A stretch of 64,000 bases of DNA from Pseudarthrobacter siccitolerans. Its GTDB lineage: Bacteria; Actinomycetota; Actinomycetes; Actinomycetales; Micrococcaceae. The stretch covers positions 4,366,417 through 4,430,416 of the forward strand of contig NZ_JAUSXB010000001.1 in assembly GCF_030823375.1 (NCBI RefSeq), read 5' to 3'. Below are positions 20,086-22,688 of this stretch, piece by piece; positions within the stretch are counted from its first letter, which is position 1; each line of letters opens with the position of its first letter. The notes under the pieces were generated by a model, which was given only the letters and a program-made list of their open reading frames with translations, searched no databases and was not told the DNA's origin. Both the position numbers and the translations under genes were made by a program.

Positions 20086-20680
20086 CCTTCAAAATCCGGA
20101 ACGACTTGGATGTTGATTCCCGGGTTACGGCAAAGGAATCATCCAGTTCGGCCGCCAGCCAGCGCTGCAGGGAGTCCGAGCCCAGGTTTTTTTGCACCAC
20201 GAGCCATGCCGTTCCACCCGGTGCCAGGCGGGGCAGCCACAGCTTCAGCAGGGAATGCAGTTCGTCCTTGCCGATCCGGATGGGCGGGTTGGACCAGATG
20301 GTGTCGAAACGCACGCCCGGATCTACAGCATCGGGCGCGCTGGCCACCACGTTAGTCAGTCCCAGCGCTGTCGCATTCTCATTGGTCAGGGTGATGCAGC
20401 GTTCGTTGACGTCCACCGCGTAGACCTTTGAATGCGGCGCCCGCAGGGCCATGGTCAGCGCAATGGGGCCCCAGCCGCAGCCGATGTCCAGCAGGTTGCC
20501 GGTGGGCGAAGGGGCGGGGACCTCGGCGAGGAGCACCGCCGTTCCCTTGTCGATGCCGTCCGGGCTGAAGATCCCGCTTGAAGTCTGCAGCCGCCGCGTT
20601 TCCCCTGCCAGTTCCACCGTGAGCGGCTTGCGGGTAAACGGGCCGGCGGGGGATGAACTGAAATAGTGTGCGGACTCCAT
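20057..20680 (-). CDS. RsmC-like class I SAM-dependent methyltransferase
   Basis: The 207-residue protein has a methyltransferase-small domain: SAM motif [14 protein letters not shown] and the NPPIR motif ([13 protein letters not shown]), typical of guanine N2 methylases acting on rRNA such as RsmC/RlmG. It has only the catalytic half, as is usual in actinobacteria. I place the start at MESAHYFSS, which aligns with the usual beginning of the family. A start at 20755 is possible but would run into the hflX promoter and leader peptide. The gene is antiparallel to both neighbours. Confidence 0.8.
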
Positions 20681-20740
20681 AACTGGCCAGAGTAGTTCCC
20701 CTTGCAGCGTAATGGGAAACCGCCGCGGGGGACGGTCTGT

Positions 20741-20746
20741 TAGGGT
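20741..20746 (+). promoter_or_regulatory. -10 box ahead of the hflX leader
   Basis: TAGGGT ends 7 bases before an ATG that opens a six-codon reading frame. This fits the leaderless pattern seen elsewhere in the window. No clear -35 is visible. Confidence 0.5.
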
Positions 20747-20753
20747 AGAACCC

Positions 20754-20774
20754 ATGTTCCTGATCTTCGAGTAG
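20754..20774 (+). CDS. Candidate leader peptide MFLIFE upstream of hflX
   Basis: ATG and five hydrophobic or acidic codons (MFLIFE) end in TAG, starting 7 bases after a TAGGGT -10 box, so the mRNA would begin at or beside this ATG. It is too short to have been found by length-based gene calling. Short hydrophobic leader peptides act as antibiotic sensors before some ribosome-rescue or resistance genes; that role here is inference from position ahead of hflX and the hairpins between them. Chance occurrence is possible. Confidence 0.4.
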   Translation: MFLIFE

Positions 20775-21107
20775 CCGGCACGGGCCACGCCCGTCCCGAA
20801 GAAACTGTCCCACAGCGATGCAGGCATTTACGCCTTCCGCACATGTGCACCGGACCACGCATAGGCGTTCGCTCCGGCCGCCGGACAATACTCGAAAGTC
20901 AGCCTCCTGCTGTCCCTTTCGGCGATTCTCCGGCCTCTTCCGCTTCGCCACCTCGCGTGAGGTGGCAACCACCCGCCGGACCGCTTGCTGCCCGGCGGGA
21001 CAATCCAGGAGAACTACATGACCGCAGGCCGTCAGCCCAGCGCGAATACTTCCCCAATCACCACCAATCGGCACTATTCTGGAAATGCCGAACCTTCTAA
21101 GGAGACC
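20775..21107 (+). promoter_or_regulatory. Structured leader region of hflX
   Basis: This 330-base stretch holds no clear gene. It contains two adjacent perfect hairpins: GCCACCTC/GAGGTGGC at 20947-20966 and CCCGCCGG/CCGGCGGG at 20972-20999. A 67-codon Arg/His-rich frame (20818-21021) ends in an ATGA overlap with an in-frame hflX start at 21018, which has its own AGGAGA 5 bases upstream. No terminator U-tract is seen, so control would be at translation or by Rho rather than by an intrinsic terminator. Confidence 0.45.
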
Positions 21108-22688
21108 ATGACCAGCCAGCCCAACACCGGATCCGATCCAGCCGCCCAGGACATGAGTCCTGAGGAAATACAGGCTGTCATCGACCGGATTCTCTCCAAG
21201 GACGTACCGGCCAAAACCGTCAGCACGCCAAGCACAACGCAACGCGGCGACGGAAAAGGGGTACTGGGGAAAGCCCAGGCAATCTCCCGCCTGGATGAAG
21301 AACATTCAACGTACGACGGCGACCAGCAGGACCTCGAGGAACGCCGCGCCCTGCGGCGCACGGCCGGGCTGTCCACCGAACTCGAAGACGTCACCGAAGT
21401 CGAATACCGGCAGCTGCGCCTGGAACGGGTGGTCCTTGCAGGCATTTGGTCTGAAGGAACCCTGGCGGACGCGGAAAACTCGCTGCGCGAACTCGCCGCC
21501 CTCGCCGAAACCGCCGGTTCAGAGGTCCTGGACGGACTGGTCCAGCGCCGTGACAAGCCGGACCCCGGAACGTTCCTGGGCTCCGGCAAGGCGCTGGAGC
21601 TGAAGGACATCGTGATGTCCACCGGCGCCGATACCGTGGTGGTGGACGCCGAGCTGGCTCCGTCCCAGCGCCGTGGCCTTGAGGACATCGTCAAGGTCAA
21701 GGTGATCGACCGGACCGGACTGATCCTCGACATTTTCGCGCAGCACGCCAAGAGCCGGGAAGGCAAGGCCCAGGTGGAGCTGGCGCAGCTCGAATACCTG
21801 CTGCCGCGCCTCCGCGGCTGGGGCGAGTCGATGTCCCGCCAGGCCGGTGGCCAAGTGGGCGGCGCTGCGGCCGGTATGGGTTCACGTGGTCCCGGTGAAA
21901 CCAAGATCGAACTGGACCGCCGGAGGATCCGCACGCGCATGGCCAAGCTGCGGCGGGAGATCGCCGCGATGAAGCCCGCCCGCGAAACCAAACGCGCCAA
22001 CCGCCGTCGTAATGAGGTGCCCTCGGTGGCCATCGCCGGGTACACCAACGCCGGCAAGTCCTCATTGCTGAACCGGCTGACGGACGCCGGCGTGCTGGTG
22101 GAGAACGCACTGTTCGCCACGCTGGATCCCACGGTCCGGAAGGCAGAAACTGCTGACGGCCTCGGCTACACGCTGGCGGATACCGTCGGTTTTGTCCGCT
22201 CGCTGCCCACGCAGCTGGTGGAGGCCTTCCGCTCCACGCTCGAAGAGGTGGCGGACTCCGATCTGATCCTCCACGTGGTGGACGTTTCACACCCGGACCC
22301 CGAAGGCCAGATCGCTGCTGTCCGCAAGGTCTTCAGCGAAGTGGACGCCCGCAAGGTTCCGGAGATCATCGTCCTGAACAAGGCTGACGCCGCCGATCCT
22401 TTTGTGGTGGAACGGCTGAAGCAGCGCGAACCGCGGAACGTCGTGGTCTCGGCACGTACCGGGGAAGGCATCCCCGAACTGCTGCAGGCCATCAGTGAGG
22501 CCATCCCGCGTCCGTCCGTCAAGCTCGAGCTGCTCATTCCCTACGACCGTGGGGACCTGGTCAGCAAGCTGCACGAATCGGATGCCGAGATCATCAGCGT
22601 TGACCATGATGAAGCCGGTACCCGGGCAGTTGTCAAAGTCCGGGAAGGCCTCGCGGCTGAACTGGAATCATTCGTCACCCATGACTGA
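21108..22688 (+). CDS. hflX: Ribosome-splitting GTPase HflX
   Basis: HflX binds the 50S E/P site region and splits stalled or antibiotic-bound ribosomes. The 526 residues contain the HflX N-domain (PDPGTFLGSGKALELK, VVDAELAPSQRRGLEDI, RTGLILDIFAQHA), the Gly-rich RGPGETKIELDRRRIR linker and the G domain: GYTNAGKSSL near 310, DTVGFVRSLP, NKAD. The start at 21108 has an excellent TAAGGAG site. An in-frame upstream ATG at 21018, also with a good ribosome site, would add 30 residues (MTAGRQPSANTSPITT...), so two forms are possible. The dinG-type helicase gene overlaps its stop by 8 bases. Confidence 0.94.
   Translation: MTSQPNTGSDPAAQDMSPEEIQAVIDRILSKDVPAKTVSTPSTTQRGDGKGVLGKAQAISRLDEEHSTYDGDQQDLEERRALRRTAGLSTELEDVTEVEYRQLRLERVVLAGIWSEGTLADAENSLRELAALAETAGSEVLDGLVQRRDKPDPGTFLGSGKALELKDIVMSTGADTVVVDAELAPSQRRGLEDIVKVKVIDRTGLILDIFAQHAKSREGKAQVELAQLEYLLPRLRGWGESMSRQAGGQVGGAAAGMGSRGPGETKIELDRRRIRTRMAKLRREIAAMKPARETKRANRRRNEVPSVAIAGYTNAGKSSLLNRLTDAGVLVENALFATLDPTVRKAETADGLGYTLADTVGFVRSLPTQLVEAFRSTLEEVADSDLILHVVDVSHPDPEGQIAAVRKVFSEVDARKVPEIIVLNKADAADPFVVERLKQREPRNVVVSARTGEGIPELLQAISEAIPRPSVKLELLIPYDRGDLVSKLHESDAEIISVDHDEAGTRAVVKVREGLAAELESFVTHD

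Follow-up and report, generated by a model that had tools for sequence, protein, structure and literature searches.

HflX is a splitter of 70S ribosomes, and in Streptomyces its gene is reportedly linked to WblC. Mycobacterial hflX has been linked to WhiB7 (PMC12493154), and Listeria hflXr (lmo0762) is induced when ribosomes stall on an ORF in front of it (PMC6310831). Control of hflX by an upstream ORF (uORF) is already known in Listeria, and has been proposed in Bacillales, both with RLR peptides. The closest described peptide is MsrDL, MYLIFM, on which the ribosome stalls while codon 6 occupies the P site, and in which changing L3 or I4 to alanine abolishes erythromycin induction (PMC10314930). 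Initiation by whole 70S ribosomes is possible on leaderless mRNAs (PMC9031893). Our literature search, largely without subscription journals, found no report of a leaderless MFLIFE uORF at hflX, and searching on the peptide string returned unrelated matches alone.

The locus described here lies in a 64,000-nt stretch of DNA (the window) from a 4.5 Mb genome. The gene starting at 21108 was called hflX in an earlier note on this DNA, and its product bears this out, matching TIGR03156 at 438.6 bits where 216.75 is the cut-off. GTP-bdg_N, GTP-bdg_M and MMR_HSR1 also score above their own cut-offs, and the HflX_C domain falls marginally below (25.6 versus 26.4). A small-domain methyltransferase gene (PF05175) diverges from hflX and shares its upstream region. 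The nearest named HflX matches among those listed come from Arthrobacter and Pseudarthrobacter. One record titled Vibrio cholerae strain 35D (L056) carries an Arthrobacter-like hflX with 80% identity and is probably mislabelled or contaminated. An RGRP AT-hook is the criterion for WhiB7; this genome encodes two WhiB proteins (L356, L357), neither of which contains one, and there is no obvious WhiB7.

Upstream of hflX, an extended -10 element is followed at a short distance by a six-codon ORF. TGT (20738-20740) adjoins TAGGGT (20741-20746), a 7-nt gap follows, and the ATG at 20754 opens MFLIFE-TAG (20754-20774; ATG TTC CTG ATC TTC GAG TAG), which from TAGGGT onward is the arrangement that the earlier note had read from the letters. 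When both strands of the window were scanned for TGN-TANNNT-N6/7-ATG followed by a short ORF (at most nine codons before the stop), the uORF before hflX was the single site, and the MFLIFE-stop string occurs once genome-wide. Because of the spacing to the -10 element, the hflX mRNA from this promoter (P1) is likely to start at or next to the uORF AUG, so that the uORF would be leaderless; its conservation suggests that it is translated.

The conservation of this arrangement is extensive. A leaderless short ORF precedes hflX in 147 of the 147 same-genus genomes examined, out of 150 searched (30 + 117); G048 and G119, with partial hflX matches, and G053 were left out. Together with named loci these genomes gave 161 leaders, 152 of them distinct. 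The spacing from the -10 element to the ATG is 7 nt in 160 of the 161 and 6 nt in one, and the T, G, T, A and final T of the -10 element are 100% conserved across the 152 distinct leaders. The ATG is found in 161/161, a count that is not independent because the ATG belonged to the search rule. The stop (TAG 125, TAA 35, TGA 1) follows codon 6 in 160 leaders and codon 4 in one. As for the peptide, which the earlier note had expected to be kept in close relatives if functional, MFLIFE is exact in 123 leaders, followed by MFLNFK (11), MILNFK (6), MILISK (4) and twelve rarer forms. Leu3 is found in 158, Ile4 in 134 and Phe at codon 5 in 152 of the 161; in one subclade Asn replaces Ile4, and MFLNFK and MILISK depart from the LIF core. 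Synonymous codon changes are also present in these leaders. Codon usage is skewed: Leu codon 3 is TTG in 102, CTG in 56 and CTC in 0 of 161, against 0.59 CTG, 0.30 CTC and 0.04 TTG for the 158 leucines of four reading frames in the window, and the Glu6 codon is GAG in 126 and GAA in 2, against 0.49 GAG in the same four frames. These codon counts are inflated by kinship of the leaders, and they suggest selection on the RNA besides the peptide.

A partner for the uORF RNA lies downstream, in a segment that we refer to as the anti-uORF. Eight central pairs between the two have 87.3% of cells paired across the 152 distinct leaders, compared with 83.5% (at most 84.3%) in shuffles and 20-44% in slides. 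The change E6K (GAG to AAG) is accompanied by C20893T, the pair being G-C in 104, A-T in 27, G-T in 17 and others in 4 of the 152. In single sequences the duplex z-scores are weak, averaging -0.89 over 163 leaders with 11% of them below -2, and we therefore used a swap test. Within the genus, with 31 leaders drawn at random, one for each distinct uORF, same-genome pairing was better than swapped pairing by 2.6 kcal/mol at +100 to +190 (p<5e-5); the ranges +40 to +130 (p 0.96) and +190 to +280 (p 0.65) gave no such advantage. In other genera, sampling one locus per distinct uORF (32 uORFs), the advantage was 1.15 to 1.35 kcal/mol in the three ranges tried for them (p 0.0007 to 0.0036); p values in both tests are rough because the sequences are related and kinship was ignored. 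These samples replaced 47 representatives that had been hand-picked after the duplexes were viewed. The leader tree holds few double changes, so that an independent-pairs test could not attain significance. Among 37 close relatives, 95% of the helix is paired, but it is almost invariant, with no two-sided change; the whole entered structure, with the 20780-20794 hairpin one column off, is 71.8% paired in these relatives versus 72.2% in shuffles. We set aside APC-corrected mutual information over the 152 leaders, in which clade signal dominated. Pairing of the uORF RNA with the anti-uORF is supported by the coevolution seen in the swap test. When the uORF is blocked in silico, the anti-uORF of close relatives folds with the next 20-25 nt; coevolution gives this alternative hairpin weak support, at p 0.037 for 31 leaders and p 0.137 for 57.

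Analogous arrangements are found beyond the genus. Among 245 family genomes searched, 60 other-genus loci were assessed for a short ATG ORF after TGN-TANNNT, with a gap of 5 to 8 nt allowed. Such an ORF is present in 27, always with a gap of 6 or 7 nt, against a chance mean of 0.185 for the 60 loci (shuffles, last 600 nt) and 0 on the reverse strand; the remaining 33 have no leaderless short ORF under the TGN-TANNNT rule. The peptides include MTLIFV, MTLFFV, MILIFV, MTFL, MTYI, MLIFL and MLSFL, as well as MKNK, MWNK, MANK and MKK, which have no LIF likeness, and MTNK and MFTS. LIF-type hydrophobic cores recur across separate genera (MFLIFE, MTLIFV, MILIFV, MLIFL). In a further reading of 78 loci (L090 excluded), an extended -10 of the TGN type accompanied by a short ATG ORF is present in 12 (L068, L070, L071, L074, L254 and L256-L262) and absent from 66, including all 42 of L076-L118 without L090. 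Several Glutamicibacter-type leaders (L297-L303, L068, L070) have T-rich tracts after the anti-uORF, and the helix could therefore be an unusual terminator stem there.

Among 396 genomes drawn from the order, 7 contain the strict leaderless MxLIFx-stop pattern, once in each and always at hflX, and all seven are same-genus genomes, of which the draw held 10. A slightly looser pattern was found in 16 of 29 relatives, every match being same-genus and at hflX. A class-wide draw of 394 genomes gave seven matches, three of them same-genus; the other four were rejected as uORFs, being coding starts MRLIFRW. Rfam matched no family to the window.

Several further elements lie between the uORF and hflX. 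The hairpin just 3' of the uORF would fall partly within the expected footprint of a ribosome at the uORF stop. The next hairpin, at 20815-20840, has one exact genomic site for its motif, with positions 96 to 100% conserved in the 152 distinct leaders except 20819 (C or T) and 20834 (78%). The two perfect adjacent hairpins at 20947-20999 to which the earlier note had drawn attention (A and B in the table) are present, yet they are partly kept in the 37 close relatives, and we rejected them as a conserved core. The earlier note had also linked a 67-codon frame (20818-21021) by an ATGA overlap to an in-frame hflX start at 21018. Frame and overlap exist, but the middle base of its ATG, 20819, is C in 66% of the 152 distinct leaders, and we rejected the frame as a gene because its start codon is not conserved.

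The in-frame start at 21018 itself is mostly kept. In 162 leaders (160 same-genus and 2 Glutamicibacter-type) it is ATG in 108, TTG in 35 and GTG in 1, mostly 90 nt 5' of the main start; an upstream in-frame start led by a Shine-Dalgarno (SD) sequence was not found in the other 18. Since this SD-led start is kept, P1 transcripts may yield a longer HflX, and a long isoform made from P1 transcripts alone is possible. Within 21031-21081, GTCAGCCCAGCGCGAAT is 86 to 100% conserved per position, and 27 nt on, TATTCTG is 99 to 100% conserved (152 leaders); a CTATTCT block before the main SD is also found in several other genera, in the g7, g22 and g23 loci and in four named loci. GTCAGCCCAGCGCGAAT and TATTCTG form a candidate second promoter, P2, with an unusual upstream box. 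The earlier note had overlooked the uORF/anti-uORF pairing, the 20815-20840 hairpin, this promoter-like block and the presence of two hflX starts.

Table 1. Features of the hflX leader and gene, in window coordinates.
Feature	Position	Strand	Evidence
Extended -10 TGT-TAGGGT of promoter P1	20738..20746	+	TGN-TANNNT, 7 nt to ATG in 160/161 same-genus leaders
Leaderless uORF MFLIFE-stop	20754..20774	+	Short leaderless ORF in 147/147 same-genus genomes
Hairpin ACGGGC-CAC-GCCCGT just 3' of uORF	20780..20794	+	Each of six pairs forms in 35 to 37 of the 37 close relatives
Hairpin GCGAYGCAGG..CCTTCCGC, internal loop	20815..20840	+	Near-invariant in genus
Anti-uORF	20889..20903	+	Complementary to uORF 20760-20773; central pairs, swap test
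Possible alternative anti-uORF partner when uORF occupied	20905..20925	+	uORF-blocked folding, close relatives
Hairpin A, GCCACCTC/GAGGTGGC	20947..20966	+	Perfect here; 51.7% of cells paired in exact window register, 37 close relatives
Hairpin B, CCCGCCGG/CCGGCGGG	20972..20999	+	Perfect here; 58.5% of cells paired in exact window register, 37 close relatives
Shine-Dalgarno AGGAG (SD1), upstream in-frame hflX start 21018	21007..21011	+	Columns 87 to 97% conserved
In-frame extension of 30 codons at the hflX N terminus (possible long form)	21018..21107	+	SD-led, open in 144/162 leaders
TATTCT, candidate -10 of P2	21075..21080	+	99 to 100% in 152 leaders
Shine-Dalgarno AAGGAG (SD2), main hflX start	21099..21104	+	99 to 100% conserved
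hflX coding sequence, main start	21108..22688	+	TIGR03156 438.6 bits

Given that the uORF peptide and its RNA partner are both conserved, the uORF may be a ribosome-sensing switch. We favour, with somewhat better than even confidence, a leaderless attenuator that responds to ribosome occupancy, probably by an antibiotic-stalled ribosome, and that acts on transcription or mRNA stability. Judging from the -10 spacing, the 5' end of the P1 mRNA would be the AUG of the six-codon ORF or a position beside it. During normal growth, a ribosome would translate MFLIFE and depart, leaving the 5' end free to pair with the anti-uORF about 130 nt downstream, the step to which the coevolution speaks. This closed state would disfavour hflX output from P1. 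A drug acting in the exit tunnel or at the peptidyl-transferase center would hold the ribosome, probably at or near the uORF stop as in MsrDL. The held ribosome would stop the 5' end from pairing, the anti-uORF is predicted, on weak support, to fold locally with the next 20-25 nt instead, and more P1 transcripts would reach and express hflX. P2 would presumably supply a basal hflX level.

The likelihoods that we attach to this and the following explanations are not mutually exclusive, and mRNA stability figures both in the favoured explanation and in one alternative. The best surviving alternative, which we hold to be clearly less probable, is an occupancy sensor with no drug-specific peptide, in which any 70S ribosome lingering at the leaderless start blocks the helix. 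Inhibitors of the start codon step, early elongation or termination, or surplus 70S, would then all act as signals, with peptide identity of minor importance. The features shared most widely are indeed the leaderless start, the very short ORF and the pairing; peptides such as MKK, MANK, MWNK and MFTS exist, and peptide changes accompany changes in the pairing partner. On the other hand, the near-constancy of Leu3 and of Phe at codon 5 within the genus, and the recurrence of LIF-type cores in separate genera, speak for a role of the peptide. In a bolder reading, to which we give a low probability, the leaderless start would itself be the sensor, with surplus or stalled 70S on the 5' AUG blocking the helix, raising hflX and lowering the 70S pool, and the LIF-type peptide would be an added macrolide sensor in some lineages. 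If true, 70S occupancy would form a homeostatic loop gauging HflX's own substrate.

A simple scan of 20600-21200 on the + strand found no U-tailed intrinsic terminator, in agreement with the earlier note's description of a leader without one, and we rejected an intrinsic terminator as the output. We rejected release of a Shine-Dalgarno sequence for now, since folding with the uORF blocked hardly alters SD accessibility: with the first 36 nt blocked in silico in 80 sampled leaders (72 with SD1), accessibility of SD1 was not freed (0.313 to 0.311; 72 leaders) and that of SD2 went from 0.400 to 0.421, rising in 18 and falling in 5 of the 80. Because SD release is unseen in folding, control of elongation or termination, or of mRNA stability, is the likely output of the favoured attenuator; any termination would be without an intrinsic terminator. 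The segment 20904-20952 is 0.43 C and 0.22 G, and on this composition our guess for the leading candidate in P1 termination control is Rho.

A 5'-end stability element, in which the mRNA is guarded from 5' decay by the closing helix or by a ribosome sitting at its 5' end, would suit both the position of the uORF at the likely 5' end and the failure to find SD freeing or an intrinsic terminator, but the helix would shield the uninduced state too, and we regard this explanation as improbable. Lower still stands classical translation attenuation, with the leader masking the hflX Shine-Dalgarno and a stalled ribosome unmasking it; RNAalifold does pair uORF positions 20757-20762 with CAGGAG of SD1 in the 37 close relatives, but the accessibilities given above speak against unmasking. 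That the ORF is incidental, with selection on DNA or RNA structure alone, is highly implausible: the strong nucleotide constraint (the GAG bias at codon 6) and the coevolving pairing would fit, but the stop after codon 6 in nearly every leader, the ATG in all (with the search rule as noted) and the unrelated short ORFs at the same spacing in other genera do not.

Compared with described systems, this locus resembles the known uORF attenuators while appearing to differ from them in its output. Like erm, msrD and rli80, it has a short uORF in cis of a ribosome factor; an intrinsic terminator and Shine-Dalgarno masking, the outputs of that class, were found neither by the simple scan nor by folding, respectively, and we therefore call it a variant rather than the same design. 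The likeness to MsrDL is close, with six codons in both (MYLIFM and MFLIFE) and L3 and I4 shared, a resemblance that falls short of proving drug sensing. However, msrDL is led by a ribosome binding site, ends mostly in UAA and is followed by a Rho-independent terminator and an ABC-F gene (PMC10314930), whereas the MFLIFE uORF is leaderless, ends mostly in TAG, has hflX 3' of it and has no intrinsic terminator that we could find.

Listeria rli80-hflXr shares a short uORF in cis of an HflX gene and an antibiotic-stalled ribosome as the switch, the latter being our proposal here. Its ORF is 14 aa long and contains an RLR motif, and its leader includes an intrinsic terminator (PMC6310831), in contrast to the six-codon, leaderless uORF described here, which has no RLR and no intrinsic terminator detected. 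The candidate uORFC-6-1, mainly of Bacillales, likewise combines a uORF with RNA structure before hflX but has the RLR motif and belongs to another phylum (PMC8632094); none of the 16 same-genus peptide types contains RLR. E. coli toiL, upstream of topAI, is a regulatory uORF responding to several antibiotic classes with premature Rho termination and is proposed to unmask a downstream ribosome binding site (PMC12121999), an unmasking not seen in silico at hflX. Control through WhiB7 or WblC is similarly antibiotic-linked and acts on actinobacterial hflX, but by a trans-acting activator. The proposed switch at this locus is built on a leaderless uORF of six codons that resembles MsrDL and whose RNA supplies one side of the helix. 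It would be a separate design for hflX control, conserved throughout the genus and matched by analogues elsewhere in the family, and it opens to testing a link between a factor that splits 70S ribosomes and initiation by such ribosomes on leaderless mRNA.
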